From Candidatus Gastranaerophilales bacterium (lineage in GTDB: Bacteria; Cyanobacteriota; Vampirovibrionia; Gastranaerophilales; Gastranaerophilaceae), in NCBI GenBank assembly GCA_947584965.1, contig CANPWQ010000006.1, positions 1 through 58,048 of the forward strand: DNA of 58,048 nt. Reading direction: 5' to 3'. The position numbers were made by a program, and so were the translations under genes. Positions 20,175 to 58,048 of the stretch are shown here, piece by piece (position 1 is the stretch's first letter; each line of letters begins with the position of its first letter). The notes under the pieces are model-generated. The model was given only the letters and a program-made list of their open reading frames with translations. It searched no databases and had not been told where the DNA came from.

Positions 20175-20200
20175 ACACTAATGAATATTTTAATAAGCAA

Positions 20201-20230
20201 AAGAGAACTTTATAAAAAGTTCTCTTTTTT
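20201..20230 (+). terminator. Rho-independent terminator after rpsR
   Basis: A 10-bp perfect stem, AAGAGAACTT paired with AAGTTCTCTT, a 6-base loop, and a run of six Ts (20225-20230). Confidence 0.9.
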
Positions 20231-20241
20231 ATTGTATAAAA

Positions 20242-20931
20242 TCAGTCCTTAATTATATGCACACCGGACCTGGTTAACACATTTGTATAAGTATTTGTCG
20301 GTATAGGGCTTCTATAATACCCGTAAGGATTAGCATAGGAATTAAAATTTGAATAATTATGATTATGCCCGAGTCGCGGAGACCTGAAATTATGTCTGTG
20401 ACTTACAGAATTAGGATATTTATTTTTTCCGTACAGAAAGTCGTTGCGATTATTAAAAAATCCGTTATTATGATAAGTATTATGAAAAGGGCAATATCCG
20501 CCCGAAGTGTTCGTATAATTCATAAACCCGTTTCCGTAAAAATCATTAACGTATCCTGTTGAAGTTAAGGGAGGAGTAAACCCTGTTAAGGCACCGTTTG
20601 AAAAATCATCAGACAGGTTATTTAAAAATCTGTTAATTATACCTTTTTTTTCTTTCGGATAATAAGTATTATCGGGTTGATAAACAGGAGGCAGGGCAGA
20701 TGAACCTATCATTTGAGATATCATATCAAGTCTTGAGTCAATATCACCCGATTGCGTCATTCCGAACAAATCCGTTTCAAGTCTCATTAACCTTGAAGCA
20801 AGACTGTCATTTTCAAAACTTTGCCCGTATTTTACCATTTCCAGATTAGAAAGGTGTTCGGGCGAATAACTGTAAACCGCTGCTTGCAGTGATAAAAATA
20901 TCATAAAAGAAATTATTATTTTTCTTAGCAT
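20242..20931 (-). CDS. Exported Asn/Tyr/His-rich hypothetical protein
   Basis: 229 residues from the ATG at 20929-20931, which has GGAGAG 8 bases upstream; a longer in-frame start 57 bp upstream lacks such a site. Signal peptide MLRKIIISFMIFLSLQAAVYS. It then has LSNLEMVKYGQSFENDSLASRLMRLETDLFG, in which 'LE..KYG......L..RL..LE..LFG' looks like a short motif I associate with exported proteins of this kind of bacterium. The C-terminal half is low complexity, rich in N, Y, H, G and F. Unknown function. Confidence 0.7.
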   Translation of the reverse strand: MLRKIIISFMIFLSLQAAVYSYSPEHLSNLEMVKYGQSFENDSLASRLMRLETDLFGMTQSGDIDSRLDMISQMIGSSALPPVYQPDNTYYPKEKKGIINRFLNNLSDDFSNGALTGFTPPLTSTGYVNDFYGNGFMNYTNTSGGYCPFHNTYHNNGFFNNRNDFLYGKNKYPNSVSHRHNFRSPRLGHNHNYSNFNSYANPYGYYRSPIPTNTYTNVLTRSGVHIIKD

Positions 20932-21005
20932 TTTCTTCTCTCCTATTGCAATATAGAGGGAAGTTAAAATGTAGGAAACAGACAACAAGCTAATATTTAG
21001 AATAA

Positions 21006-21617
21006 TTATTCCAAATTCTTTAAAATAAAGATAGTTTCGTTAACATTATTTAAAAGCGCTTCCATTTTAGCTTCTATATTTTCTTTAGTATAAATATTTT
21101 CGTTTGAAGTGTAGGGAATATAACTTTGGAATTTTTGAGCATTCATTCTGAAATTAGCAACCTCACGAGCTTGAGCCGATAAAGTATTTAATCTGTTGTA
21201 AGATAAATAATTGCTTTCCGGCTTTCCTTTGTATTCGTTTGTTATATATGCAACATTGTCAATCAAATTACTGACGATAGCATTAAATTTTTGTATATTT
21301 CTGTCTGTATTTAGACATTTTCTTAATTTTTCAAGAATAAGGATGACAGCATTAACATCTTTAAGATAATCCGTTGTTCCGTCTTTTTTAATAATAATAT
21401 CAACATAATTTTCATTTTCACGCGGAACGGGTTTTAACTTTTCCTCATTTTGTTTATCAAGATCCTCAACAGAATATGGAGCCTGCGCATTTTCACTGCT
21501 TTCTTTTCTCAAATAATCAAATTCCGCTTCAATATCAGGCAGAGTTCCTACATACCCCGCACCTGTTGTAAGAACTACTGTAATTATTAAAAATAAAAAA
21601 GGCATTATCTTTTTCAT
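21006..21617 (-). CDS. Exported helical hypothetical protein
   Basis: 203 residues with a signal peptide (MKKIMPFLFLIITVVLTTGAGYV). The mature part is mostly helical and polar (VDIIIKKDGTTDYLKDVNAVILIL; NVNETIFILKNLE). No family recognised. Its upstream promoter region contains the left copy of the 26-bp direct repeat (21633-21658); on the minus strand -10 TATAAT lies at ~21624-21629. Confidence 0.7.
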   Translation of the reverse strand: MKKIMPFLFLIITVVLTTGAGYVGTLPDIEAEFDYLRKESSENAQAPYSVEDLDKQNEEKLKPVPRENENYVDIIIKKDGTTDYLKDVNAVILILEKLRKCLNTDRNIQKFNAIVSNLIDNVAYITNEYKGKPESNYLSYNRLNTLSAQAREVANFRMNAQKFQSYIPYTSNENIYTKENIEAKMEALLNNVNETIFILKNLE

Positions 21618-21632
21618 ACTTTTATTATACTG

Positions 21633-21658
21633 ATATTTTTTTGAAAGTGAATAATTAT
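21633..21658. repeat. Left direct repeat flanking the ATP-grasp/RiPP cassette
   Basis: 26 bp: ATA, seven Ts, then GAAAGTGAATAATTAT. The right copy at 25873-25899 is the same except for eight Ts. The two lie 4.2 kb apart and bracket only the ATP-grasp, precursor and maturase genes. Outside them lie a leftward gene and a rightward gene whose promoter elements overlap the repeats. Confidence 0.75.
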
Positions 21659-21676
21659 ATGAAAAATAAAAATCCG

Positions 21677-21705
21677 TTGCAAAAATTAATTTTCCGATTT
21701 ATAAT
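21677..21705 (+). promoter_or_regulatory. Promoter P1 of the RiPP cassette, giving a leaderless start
   Basis: -35 TTGCAA (21677-21682), 17-bp spacer, consensus -10 TATAAT (21700-21705). Transcription would start at about 21711-21713, exactly at the ATG of the ATP-grasp gene (21712), so its mRNA should be leaderless. A near copy occurs at 24342-24370. Confidence 0.75.
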
Positions 21706-21711
21706 AGAGCT

Positions 21712-22772
21712 ATGAGCAAGTTTTTACACATTTTTTCAGATTTTTTTAAGTCCCTCAAACTCACGGGGGGGGGGATTACACCCTTAATTTTAAGTGTAAT
21801 TCGTTAATTCATGGATTTTTTAGTCGTTTTAACTCTTATTTTAACATAAACAATAATTATACTCCCGTTTTAAAAACTGATGGTCGTGCGGTTTTTGATT
21901 ATGATTTCTTAATGAGCCTTAACGAAAATGATTATCCTTTTTATCTTTCTCAGGCTTATTTTGTCAAAACAAGTCAAAAACTTAATTTAAAACACCCTAA
22001 AACTTTAAACGAAAAAATACAATGGTTAAAATTATTTGACAATAAGCAGCAAAAAAGCGAACTGACTGATAAGGTTTTGGTTCGCAATTGGGTTAGGGAA
22101 AAAATTGGTGATGAGTACTTAAAACCTGTCCTTTGGATTGGTGATAAGTTTGACGATATCCCTTTTGACTCCCTGCCCATTTCTTTTATTGTTAAATGTA
22201 ATCACGGCTGCAAGTGGCATTTTGTGATTAAAGATAAATTTAGATTTTTAAACGAAAAAAGGCTGTTTAATACAATAAAAATGTACACGGATAACTGGCT
22301 ACAACAATCTTTTTTCGGCTGGAGCGACTTTGAAACCCAATACTTAAATATTAATCCTAAAATTATTATTGAAGCTCTGATGTTTGATGATAACATCAAT
22401 TATAATAATGAAATTGAAGTATGGTGTTTTAACGGTAAACCTAAGATTATTCAAAATGTTCATTATAATATTGATAAATGTTGTTATTATTATACATTCG
22501 ATGAGAATTTTAACAGTATTAACTTTAAGATTGCCGGACAAAACGAATTCTGTGAACCTAAAATTGATGACAATTTTAAAAAAGCTGTTGAATTAAGCAA
22601 AATTTTAGCTGCTGATTTTAAATTTGTCCGCGTTGATTGGTTAATTTATAACAATAATTTGTATTTTGGTGAAATGACATTTACGCCTTATTCCGGATAC
22701 ATTTTCTTTAATGAAAATCACTATGAATTACAGCATAAATTTGGCAGATTATTAAATTTGAAAGGAGATTAG
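21712..22772 (+). CDS. TupA-like ATP-grasp protein, out of frame at a G10 tract (phase OFF)
   Basis: The ATG at 21712 begins MSKFLHIFSDFFKSLKLTGGG, reaches the G tract at 21765-21774 and, with ten Gs, stops at 21805-21807 after 31 residues. The downstream frame is open from the tract to 22772 and, from the internal ATG at 21912, encodes 286 residues. One more G (or two fewer) joins them into ~353 residues. The downstream part matches TupA-like ATP-grasp proteins of surface-polysaccharide loci: LKHPKTLNEKIQWLKL, DKVLVRNWVREKIGDEYL, FIVKCNHGCKWHFVIKDK, NPKIIIEALM, GEMTFTPYSGY. It leads the operon with the precursor 1 bp behind. Whether it acts on a glycan or on the peptide is unknown. Confidence 0.8.
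21765..21774 (+). repeat. G10 homopolymer tract (putative phase-variation switch)
   Basis: Ten consecutive Gs after CTCAC, within codon 18 onward of the ATP-grasp gene. At ten Gs the gene is out of frame; at 8 or 11 it would be in frame. Two other tracts of nine Gs occur at 44793-44801 and 58010-58018. Confidence 0.9.
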
Positions 22773-22773
22773 T

Positions 22774-22965
22774 ATGTCTGATAATAATAATGACAATTCT
22801 ACAGATAATTTATCTGTTAATGAAATTAACGAATTTTTTGAGGATATTATCGAAATATCTGATGATGCCGGTAAATTTATCGCAATAGGGAAAAGTACGC
22901 GTTGTTTGAAAAGTGGTCCTTTAACTATGTCAGATGGTGGTAATTTGGGTAACACGACATGTTAA
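22774..22965 (+). CDS. Putative RiPP precursor peptide
   Basis: 63 residues, AAAGGAG 7 bases upstream of the ATG. The leader part (~1-38) is acidic and Asn/Asp-rich (MSDNNNDNSTDNLSVNEINE then FFEDIIEISDDAGKF); the C-terminal 20 or so residues change to a basic, Gly/Ser/Thr-rich segment with Cys 44 and the terminal Cys 63 (KSTRCLKSG ... GGNLGNTTC). Its last 7 bases overlap the start of the radical SAM maturase, which also has a PqqD-like leader-binding region, so it is very probably the substrate. No known precursor family recognised. The two Cys fit a thioether or other Cys-based modification, but that is inference. Confidence 0.72.
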   Translation: MSDNNNDNSTDNLSVNEINEFFEDIIEISDDAGKFIAIGKSTRCLKSGPLTMSDGGNLGNTTC

Positions 22966-24326
22966 TAATTCCTAATTATATATGTACAAAAGTATATAAT
23001 ATTGATTCTCCCCCATATTCTCTCAGTTTTATTACTGATGTAAAAAACAACAAAGAATATATACTTAAGGGGGGAATTTCTAATTTATGGGAATTTATTG
23101 TTAATTCTAAAGATTATGACTTAATCTGCAAGTTTGCCATTAATAATAAACTCGACAACATTCTTGATGATTTTTTGTTTCAGTTAAAACAAAAAAAATT
23201 AATTTGTACTGACTTAAATTTTCTCTCAGAAAATTCTGTTAATTTACTTCCCGCTATTTATTTTAACAGTGAAAATTACTCTTATTATATTAATTATAAA
23301 AATAATTTTTTACTCAAATATAAATTTATTGAAAATTTGTACCTTGTTTTAAACTATAGATGTAACCTTAATTGCAGACATTGTTGTAATCCTAAAAATA
23401 TGGATCAATTTTTTATTTCCTTTGAACAGGCTAAAAAAATTATTGATGAGGCAGTTGAACTTGGAGTAAGCGAAATTTTAGTTACCGGCGGAGAATGTAC
23501 TTTAAATAAGGATTTTTTAAATATTGTTAAGTACATTAAAAGTAAATATTTAAGATTAGTCATTTTTTCTAACGGGCAAAATTTTTATGATAATGAAGAT
23601 TTATTTAACTCTATTGTTGATATTTATCCCTCTCTTATTCAATTTTCATTATACAGCACAAATCCGCAAGTTCACGATAATATGACAAGGGTTTCAGGCT
23701 CTCATCATAAAACTTTATCGGTTTTAAAAAAGTTTAAACAAGCAGGTATAAATGTCGGTATAATAAATTTTCAATCCACATACAATAAAAACAGTTATGC
23801 AGAACTTAAAAAGTTTGCTGATTCATTAAAAATAAACTGCGACACCGGCTGTTCTTTTATTTACAATAAAGACAACAATAATCTTGATGCGGCACTTTCT
23901 GAAGAGGATATGGTTAAGTATTATACCCGGCGTTACCCAACTTTATTGGATTTAGAACAAAAATACAAAAAATTCAAAAAATCAGATAAAAAAATCTGCC
24001 AAGCAGGGTATAATTTAATCAGCGTGGAACCTGATTTAAGCGTTACCCCTTGCTCGTACGCTAAATATTCCCTTGGCAACTTGAAAAACACAACACTTAA
24101 ACATATTAAAGAAAATGCTCTTCCTCAATTTCTAAAATTATATACTACAGAAAATTTAAAAGAATGTTTTAACCATGACTACTGCCAATATTGTTATTAT
24201 TGCTTAATGAATACTACTTTAAATAAAGGTTTTCTAAAAAAAGATGAAATGCTTTGCCGTGACGCAAGAGCTATTCAAAAAACTTTTTTATTACATCAGC
24301 AAAATAAGTCCTGTACTCTACATTAA
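22959..24326 (+). CDS. Radical SAM/SPASM peptide maturase 1 with PqqD-like N-terminus
   Basis: 455 residues. Residues ~1-85 have the PqqD/RRE pattern (ILKGGISNLWEFI ... LDDFLFQLKQKKLI), which binds precursor leaders. Radical SAM core: CNLNCRHC (C135, C139, C142) with an extra C143, then VTGGECTL. C-terminal SPASM-type Cys: ICQAG, TPCSYAK, ECFNHDYCQYCYYC and MLCRDAR, for auxiliary Fe-S clusters. The start overlaps the precursor by 7 bp and so is translationally coupled. The segment 23088-23762 is identical to part of the second maturase. Enzymes of this type make thioether, C-C or similar crosslinks; the reaction here is unknown. Confidence 0.88.
   Translation: MLIIPNYICTKVYNIDSPPYSLSFITDVKNNKEYILKGGISNLWEFIVNSKDYDLICKFAINNKLDNILDDFLFQLKQKKLICTDLNFLSENSVNLLPAIYFNSENYSYYINYKNNFLLKYKFIENLYLVLNYRCNLNCRHCCNPKNMDQFFISFEQAKKIIDEAVELGVSEILVTGGECTLNKDFLNIVKYIKSKYLRLVIFSNGQNFYDNEDLFNSIVDIYPSLIQFSLYSTNPQVHDNMTRVSGSHHKTLSVLKKFKQAGINVGIINFQSTYNKNSYAELKKFADSLKINCDTGCSFIYNKDNNNLDAALSEEDMVKYYTRRYPTLLDLEQKYKKFKKSDKKICQAGYNLISVEPDLSVTPCSYAKYSLGNLKNTTLKHIKENALPQFLKLYTTENLKECFNHDYCQYCYYCLMNTTLNKGFLKKDEMLCRDARAIQKTFLLHQQNKSCTLH
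23088..23762 (+). repeat. 675-bp block identical to 24543-25217 (copy 1)
   Basis: Reading the two maturase genes side by side at a constant offset of 1455 bp, the sequences agree from 23088 to 23762, including synonymous positions. It covers the end of the PqqD-like region and the radical SAM core. Flanks are diverged on both sides, then short identical patches recur. Confidence 0.9.
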
Positions 24327-24341
24327 TTTTATATAATTCCT

Positions 24342-24397
24342 TTGCAAAATAAATTTTTTCTATTTATAATAGAGTAATGAGTATGTTTTTAAGGTAA
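24342..24397 (+). promoter_or_regulatory. Promoter P2 and remnant leaderless mini-ORF before maturase 2
   Basis: -35 TTGCAA (24342-24347), 17-bp spacer, -10 TATAAT (24365-24370): a close copy of P1. At the expected start, 24377-24397 reads ATG...TAA for MSMFLR, corresponding to MSKFLH of the ATP-grasp gene. So the promoter and the first codons were duplicated and the ATP-grasp remnant was cut short before the maturase start. Confidence 0.7.
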
Positions 24398-24401
24398 ATG
24401 T

Positions 24402-25781
24402 TTGAACATGCCGGATATAAAATTACCCAAATATATTATTTCTAAAACTTATCATATTACCGACAATAATTTGTCATACAGTTTTATAGCAGATGAAAAA
24501 AATAGCATTGAATATCCGCTTAAAGGCAAATTATCCGATCTTTGGGAATTTATTGTTAATTCTAAAGATTATGACTTAATCTGCAAGTTTGCCATTAATA
24601 ATAAACTCGACAACATTCTTGATGATTTTTTGTTTCAGTTAAAACAAAAAAAATTAATTTGTACTGACTTAAATTTTCTCTCAGAAAATTCTGTTAATTT
24701 ACTTCCCGCTATTTATTTTAACAGTGAAAATTACTCTTATTATATTAATTATAAAAATAATTTTTTACTCAAATATAAATTTATTGAAAATTTGTACCTT
24801 GTTTTAAACTATAGATGTAACCTTAATTGCAGACATTGTTGTAATCCTAAAAATATGGATCAATTTTTTATTTCCTTTGAACAGGCTAAAAAAATTATTG
24901 ATGAGGCAGTTGAACTTGGAGTAAGCGAAATTTTAGTTACCGGCGGAGAATGTACTTTAAATAAGGATTTTTTAAATATTGTTAAGTACATTAAAAGTAA
25001 ATATTTAAGATTAGTCATTTTTTCTAACGGGCAAAATTTTTATGATAATGAAGATTTATTTAACTCTATTGTTGATATTTATCCCTCTCTTATTCAATTT
25101 TCATTATACAGCACAAATCCGCAAGTTCACGATAATATGACAAGGGTTTCAGGCTCTCATCATAAAACTTTATCGGTTTTAAAAAAGTTTAAACAAGCAG
25201 GTATAAATGTCGGTATACTAAGTTTTCAATCCACATACAATAAAAACAGTTATCAAGATTTAAATACATTGGCAGAGTCCTTAGATGTAGGTTATATTGA
25301 TGTCTGTTGCTTCATTTACAATAAAAACAACAATAATCTTGATGCGGCACTTTCTGAAGAGGATATGGTTAAGTATTATACCCGACGCTATCCAACTTCA
25401 TTGGATTTAGAACATAAATACAAAAAATTCAAAAAATCAGATAAAAAAATCTGCAAAGCAGGGTATAATTTAATCAGCGTGGAACCTGATTTAAGTATTA
25501 CACCATGTATGTACTCTAAATATTCTTTTGGGAACTTGAAAAATATAACTCTAAAATATGTTAAAGAAAATATTCTACCTGAATTTCAAAAATTATATAC
25601 TACAGAAAATTTAAAAGAGTGCTTTAAATATGATTATTGTAAATATTGTTCTTACTGTTTAGTAAATGTTATGTTAAACAGTGAGTTTTTAAAAAAATCA
25701 GAAATGCTATGCCGTAATGCAAGAGCCGTTCAAAAAACTTTTTTATTACATCAACAAAATAAACCCTGTATTCCTCAATAA
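24402..25781 (+). CDS. Radical SAM/SPASM peptide maturase 2 with PqqD-like N-terminus
   Basis: 459 residues from a TTG (24402) with AAGG 7 bases upstream, or 457 from the ATG at 24408. The first ~47 residues differ from maturase 1 (PDIKLPKYIISKTYH versus IIPNYICTKVYN), so leader recognition may differ. The core CNLNCRHC and SPASM Cys (ICKAG, TPCMYSK, ECFKYDYCKYCSYC, MLCRNAR) are kept. A short segment around 25250-25310 (YQDLNTLAESLDVGYIDVCC) also differs from copy 1. It has its own promoter P2 but no precursor of its own nearby, so it may act on the same peptide or on one encoded elsewhere. Confidence 0.87.
   Translation: MNMPDIKLPKYIISKTYHITDNNLSYSFIADEKNSIEYPLKGKLSDLWEFIVNSKDYDLICKFAINNKLDNILDDFLFQLKQKKLICTDLNFLSENSVNLLPAIYFNSENYSYYINYKNNFLLKYKFIENLYLVLNYRCNLNCRHCCNPKNMDQFFISFEQAKKIIDEAVELGVSEILVTGGECTLNKDFLNIVKYIKSKYLRLVIFSNGQNFYDNEDLFNSIVDIYPSLIQFSLYSTNPQVHDNMTRVSGSHHKTLSVLKKFKQAGINVGILSFQSTYNKNSYQDLNTLAESLDVGYIDVCCFIYNKNNNNLDAALSEEDMVKYYTRRYPTSLDLEHKYKKFKKSDKKICKAGYNLISVEPDLSITPCMYSKYSFGNLKNITLKYVKENILPEFQKLYTTENLKECFKYDYCKYCSYCLVNVMLNSEFLKKSEMLCRNARAVQKTFLLHQQNKPCIPQ
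24543..25217 (+). repeat. 675-bp block identical to 23088-23762 (copy 2)
   Basis: Second copy of the duplicated maturase core. Lack of even silent differences implies very recent duplication or gene conversion, while the diverged ends show the two genes are older paralogues. Confidence 0.9.
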
Positions 25782-25872: not shown

Positions 25873-25899
25873 ATATTTTTTTTGAAAGTGAATAATTAT
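25873..25899. repeat. Right direct repeat flanking the ATP-grasp/RiPP cassette
   Basis: 27 bp: ATA, eight Ts, then GAAAGTGAATAATTAT, matching 21633-21658 apart from one T. It also supplies a TTGAAA -35-like element to the rightward solute-binding gene (TATGAT 18 bp later). Confidence 0.75.
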
Positions 25900-25938
25900 T
25901 CAAAATATGATATTGTTGTGAATAACAAGGGAAAAATA

Positions 25939-26721
25939 ATGAAAAAAATTATAACATTATTAATGCTCGCGGTGATATTATTCACAGGCTGCAGCAAAAA
26001 AGAGACAATAAGCAGATACGATGAAATAATAAAAAGAGACGTATTAATTGTAGGAGTTAAGACTGATTCAAAACCGTTTGGATACATCAGCTCTGTTACA
26101 AACAGCCCCGAGGGATTTGATATTGATGTTGCCAGATATATAGCTCAAGACATTTTAGGTAGTGAGCGTAAAATAAAGTTTGTAAGCGTAACTCCCAACA
26201 CAAAAATTGAAGCATTAACCTCGGGAGAAGTTGATTTAATAATAGCTACAATGTCAATAACCCCACAAAGAGCGCTGCTTATTGACTTTTCACTGCCATA
26301 TTATATTGCGGGGCAAAGCGCTTTGGTAAAAGAAGACAGTAATATACATACTTTTTCAGACTTAAAAGATAAAACAACAATAGTAGTTCTGGGTTCAACC
26401 GCAGAAAGGAATATAAGAAGAATTATTCCCATGGCAAAAATCATCGGATACAAAAATTATGAAGAAGCATTTAACGCTTTTTTAAACGGCGAAGCCGACG
26501 CAATAAGCACTGATGATACAATACTTTCGGGGTTTCTTCTTGACCATAAAGGGTATAGAATGTTAAAAAATAAAATTACAAAAGAAGCCTATGCCGTTGG
26601 CATTCGCAAAAGCGATGATGATAATGATGATAAATTAAAAAGAAATGTTAATGTAATTATAACCAGAATGCAAAAAGACGGAACTTTAAAAGACCTCAAA
26701 AATAAATGGCATCTTAAATAA
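25939..26721 (+). CDS. Amino-acid-type ABC transporter substrate-binding lipoprotein
   Basis: 260 residues from the ATG at 25939, with AAGGG upstream; an in-frame start 57 bp earlier would bury the signal peptide. Lipoprotein signal MKKIITLLMLAVILFTGC with Cys 18 as lipidation site. SBP family 3 features: LIVGVKTDSKPFGY, EGFDIDVARYIAQDIL, EVDLIIATMSITPQRA, IDFSLPYY, GEADAISTD. Binds a polar amino acid or similar solute in the periplasm. No permease or ATPase gene is adjacent, so it must share a transporter encoded elsewhere. Its stop abuts the stop of the convergent gene. Confidence 0.9.
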   Translation: MKKIITLLMLAVILFTGCSKKETISRYDEIIKRDVLIVGVKTDSKPFGYISSVTNSPEGFDIDVARYIAQDILGSERKIKFVSVTPNTKIEALTSGEVDLIIATMSITPQRALLIDFSLPYYIAGQSALVKEDSNIHTFSDLKDKTTIVVLGSTAERNIRRIIPMAKIIGYKNYEEAFNAFLNGEADAISTDDTILSGFLLDHKGYRMLKNKITKEAYAVGIRKSDDDNDDKLKRNVNVIITRMQKDGTLKDLKNKWHLK

Positions 26722-44240: not shown

Positions 44241-45926
44241 ATGGAATTAATGAACAAAAATACAAACACTTTAAATATTGCGTTTGCTTTTATTTTAGGA
44301 ATATTTACAACTTATTTTCTTTCTTTTATCGGGTTTATTTTTCATTTATCAATTACATCGATATTTTTGATTATTGGTCTTATCAGCGCTTATTTTTCTT
44401 TATTTTTACAGAGAAAAAATTATTTTTCTTTAATTAAAACAATTATTATTTTTACAGCTATATTAATTATTACTTATTATATAGCAAGTCATACGATTGA
44501 TTACTCTTGGGACGGCAGAACATATCATCAATTAGGTATTATATTGTTAAATGAGGGCTGGAATCCCATTTTTGATAATTTAACGAATTTTGTTAATATA
44601 CATAATTATCCGCCTGTTGAGCATCTTATTTGGGTGGAAAATTATACTAAATTTGCGGAAATAATTGGAGCCAATGTATATGCATTAACAAATAACCTTG
44701 AAGCAGGAAAAATTATAAATTGGCTATCTGCTTTTACTGTTTTTTTCTATGCCAATTACACCTTTGATAACATATCATCGCTAAAACCTAATGGGGGGGG
44801 GTATAAAACTAAAATCATAAATATTATATTTTCTCTGCTATTATCGGCATGCCCTATTGTTATCAGCCAAATTTATACTTTTTATGTTGACGGGAATTTA
44901 TATTGTTATTTTATTCTTATTTTACTTGCTCTAATTAATACGGAAATCGCAAAAGACAATATTAAAAAGAATTTATTTATTTTTGTTTTTTCAACAGTAA
45001 TACTTATAAACATTAAATTGGTTGGAATTTTATATATTTTTATTATTCTTTTAGTTTATTTTGCTTATAAAAAAATGAAGCCGTCAAAATCTTTTCTGGT
45101 TTCAACATTAATAATACTGCTATTAGGGCTATTATCAGGGATTAATCCGTATTTTACAAATATAGCTCAAGGCAGAAACCCGATTTATCCGCTTGCAGGG
45201 AAAGGAAAAATAGATATCTTAACCCATAACATGCCTAAAGAGTTCAAAAATAAATTAATGCCCTACAAACTTATTATTTCTACTTTTTCAATTGTGCAAA
45301 ATCCTTCTTATGAAACAAAAAGCAAAATAAAATTAAAATGCCCTCTAACTTTTAGACAAAGTGAATTATACAACTTAAAATTTACGGATGTGAGATTATG
45401 CGGGTTTGGTATTTTTTGGAGCGGAATACTAATACTCGCGTTAATACAACTATTATTAATTAAAAATCAAAATAATGAAGAAAAAAAGATAATGTGGTTA
45501 ATAACCGCTATAATATGCCTTTCCGTATTATCAAACCCCGAATGCTGGTGGGCGCGCTATGCTCCTCAATTTTGGGCATTACCTGTTTTCATAGTTTACT
45601 TTAAAATAATTAATTCAGATAAAATAATGTTTATTTCAATATTTACAATAATTTTTATGTTCTTAAACATATTAATATATTTGCTTGCTGCAAGTGTTGT
45701 CCATAAAGAATTTATTTATCAATTAAATACAATTAATAATTACAATAAAGTAGTAAGAATATACTCGCCTAAAAAATTTTTTGAGTATTCTTTTTTTCAA
45801 AAACTTGATAATAAAAACATCAAATATAAAATCATTAATCAAGATGAATATATCAAGGATAAAGACAAATTTTATAATCCGAGTATTACAGTTGATAAGG
45901 ATTTCCTATGGGATTTAAAGATGTAA
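44241..45926 (+). CDS. GT-C-like polytopic membrane glycosyltransferase with an in-frame G9 tract
   Basis: 561 residues (or 558 from the ATG at 44250) with about ten membrane helices. The first loop has SHTIDYSWDGRTYHQLG, an acidic motif in the position expected for lipid-phospho-sugar glycosyltransferases, and CWWARYAPQFWALP is another conserved-looking loop. At 44793-44801 nine Gs encode GGG in LKPNGGGYK, in frame here; loss or gain of one G would truncate it after ~190 residues. The start has no clear ribosome-binding site and is 24 bases after the tRNA. It overlaps the UbiA-family gene by 19 bp, so the enzyme may use that gene's polyprenyl-phosphate sugar. Confidence 0.72.
   Translation: MELMNKNTNTLNIAFAFILGIFTTYFLSFIGFIFHLSITSIFLIIGLISAYFSLFLQRKNYFSLIKTIIIFTAILIITYYIASHTIDYSWDGRTYHQLGIILLNEGWNPIFDNLTNFVNIHNYPPVEHLIWVENYTKFAEIIGANVYALTNNLEAGKIINWLSAFTVFFYANYTFDNISSLKPNGGGYKTKIINIIFSLLLSACPIVISQIYTFYVDGNLYCYFILILLALINTEIAKDNIKKNLFIFVFSTVILINIKLVGILYIFIILLVYFAYKKMKPSKSFLVSTLIILLLGLLSGINPYFTNIAQGRNPIYPLAGKGKIDILTHNMPKEFKNKLMPYKLIISTFSIVQNPSYETKSKIKLKCPLTFRQSELYNLKFTDVRLCGFGIFWSGILILALIQLLLIKNQNNEEKKIMWLITAIICLSVLSNPECWWARYAPQFWALPVFIVYFKIINSDKIMFISIFTIIFMFLNILIYLLAASVVHKEFIYQLNTINNYNKVVRIYSPKKFFEYSFFQKLDNKNIKYKIINQDEYIKDKDKFYNPSITVDKDFLWDLKM
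44793..44801 (+). repeat. G9 homopolymer tract in the GT-C-like gene
   Basis: Nine Gs reading Gly-Gly-Gly between AAT and TAT codons; in frame in this sequence (ON). Confidence 0.9.
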
Positions 45927-57200: not shown

Positions 57201-58048
57201 ATGATAGAACAAAATGATAAAATTTATGTAACATCTCCTTTATTGGCTGCACCGGATGATGTAAGTAGTTTGATTAAAGATATTTGGAGCTCAAAATGGC
57301 TTACAAATATGGGTAAATATCATAATTTACTTGAAAACAAATTAAAAGAAGTATTAAAAGTAAAAAACGTATCGTTATTTAACAATGGTACAATAGCACT
57401 TTTAGTTGCAATTAAAGCTCTTAATCTGCCTGAAGGAAGCGAGGTAATAACCACTCCTTTTACGTTCGCTGCAACTCCTCATTGCATAACATGGAACAAA
57501 TTAACCCCCGTTTTTTGCGATATAGAGCCTGATACAATGACTATTGATGCAAATAAAATAGAAGAATTGATAACACCAAAAACATCGGCAATATTGGGTG
57601 TACATGTATACGGTTTCCCTTGTGATGTTGAAAAAATAGATAAAATCGCAAAAAAACATAATTTAAAAGTAATTTATGACGCGGCTCACGCTTTTTCTAC
57701 GGAAATTAACGGCAGGGGAATAGGTACTTTTGGCGATATTTCAATGTTTTCTTTCCACGCTACTAAACTATTTAATACAATAGAGGGCGGGTGTCTGACA
57801 TATAATGATGATAATTTGGTAAGAAAAATTTACAACCTAAGAAATTTTGGCATACAAAGTGAAGAATTAGTTGAAGATGTCGGAATTAACGGGAAGATGA
57901 ATGAATTTCAAGCCGGCATCGGATTATTAAATTTAAATTTATTCAAAGAAGAACAAGAAAAAAGGAAAAAAGTTAAAAATCTTTATGATTACGGACTGAA
58001 AAACCTCACGGGGGGGGGATTTTTAAGGCTTCCTAAATTGCCTGAAGA
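57201..58048 (+). CDS. DegT/DnrJ/EryC1-family sugar aminotransferase, 3'-truncated by the window edge
   Basis: 282 residues visible. PLP-dependent transamination of a keto-sugar nucleotide for surface glycan. Starts MIEQNDKIYVTSPLLAAP with AAGAGGT 6 bases upstream. Seen: SKWLTNMG, NNGTIALLVAIKAL, TTPFTFAATPHCI, YDAAHAF and the PLP lysine in SFHATKLFNTIEGG (K189). The pattern is near VioA/WecE-like 4-keto-6-deoxyhexose aminotransferases. At 58010-58018 nine Gs encode part of LKNLTGGGFLRLPKLPE, in frame here; a change of one G would shift the last third. No stop before the edge. Confidence 0.9.
   Translation, partial: MIEQNDKIYVTSPLLAAPDDVSSLIKDIWSSKWLTNMGKYHNLLENKLKEVLKVKNVSLFNNGTIALLVAIKALNLPEGSEVITTPFTFAATPHCITWNKLTPVFCDIEPDTMTIDANKIEELITPKTSAILGVHVYGFPCDVEKIDKIAKKHNLKVIYDAAHAFSTEINGRGIGTFGDISMFSFHATKLFNTIEGGCLTYNDDNLVRKIYNLRNFGIQSEELVEDVGINGKMNEFQAGIGLLNLNLFKEEQEKRKKVKNLYDYGLKNLTGGGFLRLPKLPE
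58010..58018 (+). repeat. G9 homopolymer tract in the aminotransferase gene
   Basis: Nine Gs after CTCAC, the same five bases that precede the tract at 21765. In frame here; the downstream sequence reads as expected for the family (LRLPKLPE). Confidence 0.9.

Follow-up and report, generated by a model that had tools for sequence, protein, structure and literature searches.

The window analysed in this work, i.e. the whole stretch of 58,048 nucleotides from a Candidatus Gastranaerophilales genome, carries on its forward strand a promoter, a TupA-like ATP-grasp ligase gene, a 63-amino acid ORF, a radical SAM/SPASM gene and a second radical SAM/SPASM gene, in that order. The promoter (TTGCAA-N17-TATAAT, 21677-21705, + strand), whose arrangement recurs before many of the ATP-grasp starts in related cassettes, ends close to the ligase gene, the ATG of which is located only 6 nt beyond it, and a nearly leaderless ATP-grasp mRNA is inferred. 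The ligase gene (21712-22772, + strand; PF14305, E 7e-30) is frameshifted as assembled, with an in-frame part at 21750-22772 and a largest ATG-initiated ORF at 21912-22772. The 63-amino acid ORF (MSDNNNDNSTDNLSVNEINEFFEDIIEISDDAGKFIAIGKSTRCLKSGPLTMSDGGNLGNTTC; 22774-22965, + strand) starts 1 nt past the ligase stop and overlaps by 7 bp with the 455-aa radical SAM gene (22959-24326, + strand), which is followed by the second maturase gene (24402-25781, + strand). Beyond ligase, precursor and maturase, a neighbour search returned only ordinary synteny, and no transporter or protease is therefore counted as a cassette member.

This 4.2-kb cassette is bracketed by two copies of a 23-bp direct repeat (TTTTTTTGAAAGTGAATAATTAT), the left copy at 21636-21658 and the right copy at 25877-25899, neither being assigned to a strand. 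The flanking regions 20200-21658 and 25877-26721 are joined directly in two relatives (L198 and L199), with an exact 23-bp overlap, the repeat being present there as a single copy. Since the flanks join at one copy in these relatives and a copy is found on both sides in the window, the cassette is, on this comparison, an insertion for which the two relatives retain the empty site. In L198 and L199 a cassette start, degraded or not, is found instead beyond the neighbouring solute-binding-protein gene; a degraded cassette start was observed behind the neighbouring gene in G027. No terminal inverted repeats could be identified for the insertion (the best match being 9 nt), nor was a transposase found for the inserted cassette.

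Precursor peptide and its variable core

The 63-amino acid ORF can be divided into a leader (approximately residues 1-30) and a core (approximately residues 31-63), the last residue being a Cys. A sequence-only reading of this DNA had described a small ORF with an acidic leader, a Cys end and a 7-bp overlap with the radical SAM gene, and this description was confirmed. The same reading had proposed that it would be refuted if the precursor were not conserved next to homologous maturases in other genomes; in 26 cases, all within one genus of rabbit-gut Candidatus Gastranaerophilales, a homologous radical SAM gene was found to be adjoined upstream by a leader-bearing ORF of 38-69 amino acids (two of these ORFs being cut at the 5' end). 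The leader consensus (..NLSxxEINELFxDIIExPD..) is common to all 26 ORFs, the window precursor matching the leader profile with an E value of 4e-12, and the C-terminal part is hypervariable and cannot be aligned. Leaders are almost devoid of Cys, and Cys is present in 24 of the 26 cores; the two Cys-less cores (L035 and L052) each contain a homopolymer at which a one-base change would generate a Cys-containing core. Five of the 26 cores lack Asp and Glu past their first five residues.

Given this leader/core anatomy and the Cys pattern across 26 cassettes, the precursor assignment is about as strong as sequence alone permits. A gene-encoded precursor with a constant leader and a variable core, with tailoring enzymes alongside, meets the definition of a RiPP locus at the level of the genes, and it is very probable that a chemically modified peptide is the product of this small gene set, which looks mobile. 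This supports the modified-peptide reading proposed previously, with the chemistry of the product not shown and its chemical class still open. None of the named RiPP models matched the cassette proteins. Known aromatic cyclophane classes were rejected, the cores being without the aromatic motif, in agreement with the poor fit to aromatic crosslink classes noted before. The streptide class was likewise not met, as the window core has no Trp and thus no Lys-Trp pair; SCIFF, Nif11 leaders and GG leaders were also considered and rejected, and a GG cleavage motif is absent from the precursor.

Radical SAM/SPASM maturases

The first maturase matches the Radical_SAM domain (PF04055, E 6e-21) and exceeds the cut-off for SPASM (PF13186; 22.7 vs 21.5 bits), whereas the second matches Radical_SAM (E 1e-20) and remains just below the SPASM cut-off (18.0 bits). 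The CX3CX2C motif with an adjacent Cys (CNLNCRHCC) is present as had been reported, but conservation within the family does not extend to this extra Cys, which cannot serve as a family feature. The SPASM-type Cys residues noted earlier were borne out, seven of them being invariant across 23 homologues. The PqqD HMM did not match either maturase, and no curated NCBIfam peptide-maturase (equivalog) cut-off was reached. The PqqD-like N-terminus that had been read from the sequence is thus not recovered at the level of an HMM, although it is supported by the predicted fold: in the structure model, residues ~8-78 (pLDDT 80-95) form a strand-strand-strand-helix-helix-helix domain, and SuiB aligns to the model from residue 1 (Z ~14, rmsd 5.8-6.7 over 317-341 residues). 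This predicted three-strand, three-helix PqqD-like domain fulfils the description of an RRE. SkfB gave the best profile match of all sequences with a solved structure, and the fold matches of the maturase lie near SuiB, SkfB and CteB. The resemblance to SkfB in sequence, and to SuiB and SkfB in fold, speaks against a non-peptide SPASM subfamily, the second outcome that would have refuted the earlier reading, and the combination of a radical SAM/SPASM maturase with a Cys-containing core meets one criterion for sactipeptides/ranthipeptides, at the level of the genes. Homologues of the first maturase occur in 21 of 147 related genomes, nearly all of the same genus, and in an order-wide sample in 19 of 383 genomes, 17 of which belong to that genus; no relative was found on viral contigs.

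The small ORF might instead encode a maturase helper, comparable to PqqD or to the LPL proteins that graspetide loci are described as encoding beside their SPASM genes (PMC8939145), or a secreted peptide that stays unmodified, rather than a substrate. Such a role would be consistent with a small protein encoded just upstream of a SPASM gene and with the missing GG motif, and is nevertheless regarded as highly improbable: a PqqD-like domain is already predicted within the maturase, many leader ORFs have no adjoining maturase, and a constant N-terminal part followed by a hypervariable, Cys-rich C-terminal half is the reverse of what a helper would display.

The second maturase (24402-25781) lacks a precursor of its own. 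The 61-nt stretch preceding it (24331-24391, + strand) is 79% identical to 21666-21726, and corresponds to a remnant of the promoter and start codon of an ATP-grasp gene. Judged from this match, the second maturase is the leftover of a second cassette from which ligase and precursor were lost. The two maturases, which had been taken as a set, accordingly do not constitute a designed pair. They share 675 bp of exact identity (~24543-25217 in the second and ~23088-23762 in the first), with surrounding regions at 50-90%; this fits gene conversion, and an assembly error, the sequence being derived from a metagenome, cannot be excluded. Two complete cassettes in tandem are present in another genome (G019).

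TupA-like ligase, core exchange and G tracts

The ATP-grasp gene had been placed in the same operon by the sequence-only reading, but was mentioned only in passing, whereas neighbour counts indicate it to be the class-defining partner. The leader profile retrieves further precursors in the genus (E down to 1e-17); of 51 additional leader-bearing ORFs that were checked, 33 are located directly behind a TupA-like ATP-grasp gene, nine at a contig edge and nine without such a gene. When contig-edge ORFs are excluded, leaving those with readable upstream DNA, the ligase precedes the precursor in 33 of 42 loci, and a related radical SAM gene is located downstream in only three of those checked. On these counts the constant partner of the precursor is the TupA-like ATP-grasp, not the maturase. 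Two such ligase-precursor pairs (L257 and L258) are found in the same genome as the window. Other partners of leader ORFs are a different radical SAM family (MANIFLTRKCNLKCPYCFADEF..; L258, L304 and L325), a SPASM gene (L265) and a U32-peptidase-like gene (L261, L312 and L317).

Residues K, R, D and E of the ligase active-site region are invariant in 13 homologues. Only PF14305 identified the ligase: NCBIfam ATP-grasp models gave no match up to E 10, either for this protein or for two full-length relatives, and an ATP-grasp profile searched against PDB sequences recovered neither a graspetide ligase nor any solved homologue. The structure model of the ligase, based on a three-sequence alignment, was poor (pLDDT 50), no fold search was based on it, and the ligase substrate is therefore not constrained. 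Among leader-family ORFs the C-terminal residue is Lys in 20 of 64 and Cys in 10 of 64, compared with 5.5% Lys and 7.4% Cys in cassette cores, a bias that is only a hint because the loci are related.

Comparison of L257 with L258 reveals 100% identity over the 600 bp ahead of the precursor, with the ligase included in the identical part; the value is 99% for the leader and 48% for the core, the downstream DNA being unrelated like the cores. Three more pairs exhibit the same drop at the leader/core border, and these alignments show that cores have been exchanged at that border. In two genomes (G021 and G009; L259-L261, L267, L268 and L299-L337) TupA-like ATP-grasp genes are present by the dozen, and the precursors behind them have long cores of 60-130 amino acids rich in Cys, Tyr and Trp. 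Their ligase matches, fragments included, number 74 and 99, respectively, and the true number is uncertain since contigs often break inside the ligase.

Near the start of the window ligase gene a G10 tract is located (21765-21774, + strand), which is inferred to act as a phase-variation switch on account of its rarity and its conserved position in related cassettes. The ATG at 21712 opens a frame (MSKFLHIFSDFFKSLKLTGGG..) that reaches a stop after G10, and with a tract of G11 or G8 it would read into the ligase; the assembly therefore represents the ligase in the OFF state. A G/C run of 10 is expected 0.006 times in the window, and runs of at least 9 are expected 0.03 times from base composition, as opposed to three observed, with runs of 7 and 8 being absent. 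Coding-strand tracts of G8-G11 occur at the ligase start in 15 of the 22 related cassettes whose ligase start is covered by sequence. Eleven of the 15 are internal, four of these being in frame (ON) and seven OFF, and every internal tract has an upstream start whose frame continues into the ligase for one class of tract length. The tandem copies in G019, nearly the same over their first 60 nt, are G9 (ON) vs G10 (OFF). A homopolymer that sets the frame, with ON and OFF states both found, satisfies the criterion for a contingency locus, the states being distributed across different cassettes and not within one population. Tract lengths were derived from metagenome assemblies with one genome per species, so that variation within a population was not observed, and the function of the tract as a switch remains an inference.

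The G10 tract, together with the core exchange, the insertion with its 23-bp repeat, the vestige of a promoter and start codon ahead of the second maturase and the 675-bp identity between the maturases, had been missed by the previous description.

It is also conceivable, though unlikely, that RiPP cassettes genuinely exist in the genus but that the present copy is decaying, with a permanently frameshifted ligase and a second cassette reduced to its maturase. The out-of-frame G10, the loss of ligase and precursor from the second cassette and the degraded start in G027 are compatible with decay; the frameshift nonetheless falls exactly at a tract whose position is conserved, some cassettes are ON, and the precursor and first maturase are intact.

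Tracts are not restricted to ligase genes, as they also occur inside precursors. In L035 (4497-4830) the leader/core border of each of two tandem precursors contains a C tract, where slippage would alter the core itself instead of the ligase. The genome from which the window derives (G000; L083-L112) contains ~42 separate tracts of G9 or longer in 1.73 Mb, against an expectation of 0.03 per 58 kb at the base composition of the window, and has the appearance of a genome-wide poly-G contingency system. Within the genus, 21 of the 26 good genomes carry at least one tract, with counts varying strongly among species, from 0 to over 100 matches. Two further G9 tracts are present in the window (44793-44801 and 58010-58018), the former being in frame inside an ORF for a 561-aa membrane protein (44241-45926), the post-tract part of which had no Pfam match.

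Several other G-tract genes of this genome are glycan genes (GT8 and DUF4422 glycosyltransferases, an acyltransferase-like gene and a weakly matched pyruvyl transferase), and the cassette thus shares its type of switch with surface glycans. Together with the membership of the ligase in a TupA-like family, this leaves room for a reading in which the ATP-grasp modifies a surface polysaccharide, as is thought for TupA, the peptide being a group ligated onto the glycan or a bystander. This reading is considered improbable, since the ligase directly precedes the precursor in the 33 of 42 evaluable loci and glycan genes are not constant neighbours.

Proposed biosynthesis and relation to known systems

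The explanation judged to be probable is that of a phase-variable RiPP cassette composed of a promoter, a TupA-like ATP-grasp ligase, a precursor and an RRE-bearing radical SAM/SPASM maturase. Leader docking, the Cys cross-link, the ligase bond and tract slippage are the inferred parts of this explanation, for which product, mass or expression data are not available. The leader helix (EINELF.DII) would dock both on the RRE of the maturase and on the ligase; the radical SAM enzyme would form a Cys-based cross-link in the core, most likely a thioether; and the ATP-grasp would form an ATP-dependent amide or ester. The most likely order would be binding of the leader by the RRE, radical chemistry on core Cys, formation of the ligase bond, and then cleavage and export, the latter performed by genes elsewhere as the cassette contains no transporter or protease. 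Of these steps, the reaction of the ligase is the least secure. A graspetide-like general side-chain cross-link does not fit all cores, as five lack Asp/Glu, and the bond is more likely to involve the C-terminus, its vicinity or a Lys than to be a general Asp/Glu cross-link. Slippage at the G tract would toggle the ligase on and off, and may also reduce downstream translation because the precursor starts 1 nt past the ligase stop.

The nearest known systems are the Bacteroidetes grasp-with-spasm loci, i.e. graspetide branch 5 (PMC8939145), in which an ATP-grasp, a precursor and a SPASM enzyme are likewise found together, with very diverse precursors containing conserved Cys and with multiple copies. 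In contrast to these loci, the cassette ligase is TupA-like (PF14305) without an NCBIfam match, the precursor lacks a GG motif, and several cores lack Asp/Glu. Graspetide identity was rejected on the basis of the ligase, which matched no graspetide (RimK-like) ATP-grasp family, and TupA and PF14305 are both absent from the text of the graspetide survey (PMC8939145). SuiB (streptide) and SkfB/CteB (sactipeptide/ranthipeptide) also combine an RRE, a radical SAM barrel and a SPASM region in one chain, but are only 14-16% identical to the maturase, with no equivalog cut-off reached, and the cassette core lacks the Lys-Trp pair of the SuiB system. Poly-G contingency loci are well known in Campylobacter and Neisseria (PMC8355987, PMC3786947) and resemble those described here in having coding-strand G8-G11 tracts near gene 5' ends, many per genome and several in glycan genes; they differ in that the present switch is located in a RiPP ligase or precursor core, and in a gut relative of cyanobacteria rather than a pathogen. 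In the literature searched, which did not cover subscription journals and preprints, neither a G-tract-switched RiPP nor a pairing of PF14305/TupA with a RiPP precursor was found.

TupA, a teichuronopeptide ligase, functions in cell-wall polymer synthesis. The cassette ligase exceeds the cut-off for the same Pfam domain and differs from TupA in being paired with a leader/core peptide. A broader proposal, for and against which the present evidence is evenly balanced, is that a TupA-like ATP-grasp and an LSxxEINELFxDIIE leader together define a new RiPP class, in which radical SAM enzymes and other partners are optional. Such a class would comprise a large repertoire, with core swapping as a source of diversity and with G-tract switching within its radical SAM branch, in the manner of surface-antigen variation. 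If right, a ligase family of cell-wall polymers would join the RiPP toolbox, a natural library of hundreds of cores would be available behind a single leader, and there would be a RiPP with stochastically switched production and a recombination-exchanged product. Peptide natural products would then be connected with the logic that underlies phase and antigenic variation, and this in a gut-dwelling, non-photosynthetic relative of cyanobacteria that has been little studied.

The maturase has a sister clade (33-39% identity; L042-L050 and L074-L078), which is associated with other small peptides encoded upstream, for example MKKLYIKKRVK.. and MLKISLVAKHTVVQMAGCAK.., and some of its members also adjoin a TupA-like ATP-grasp gene.
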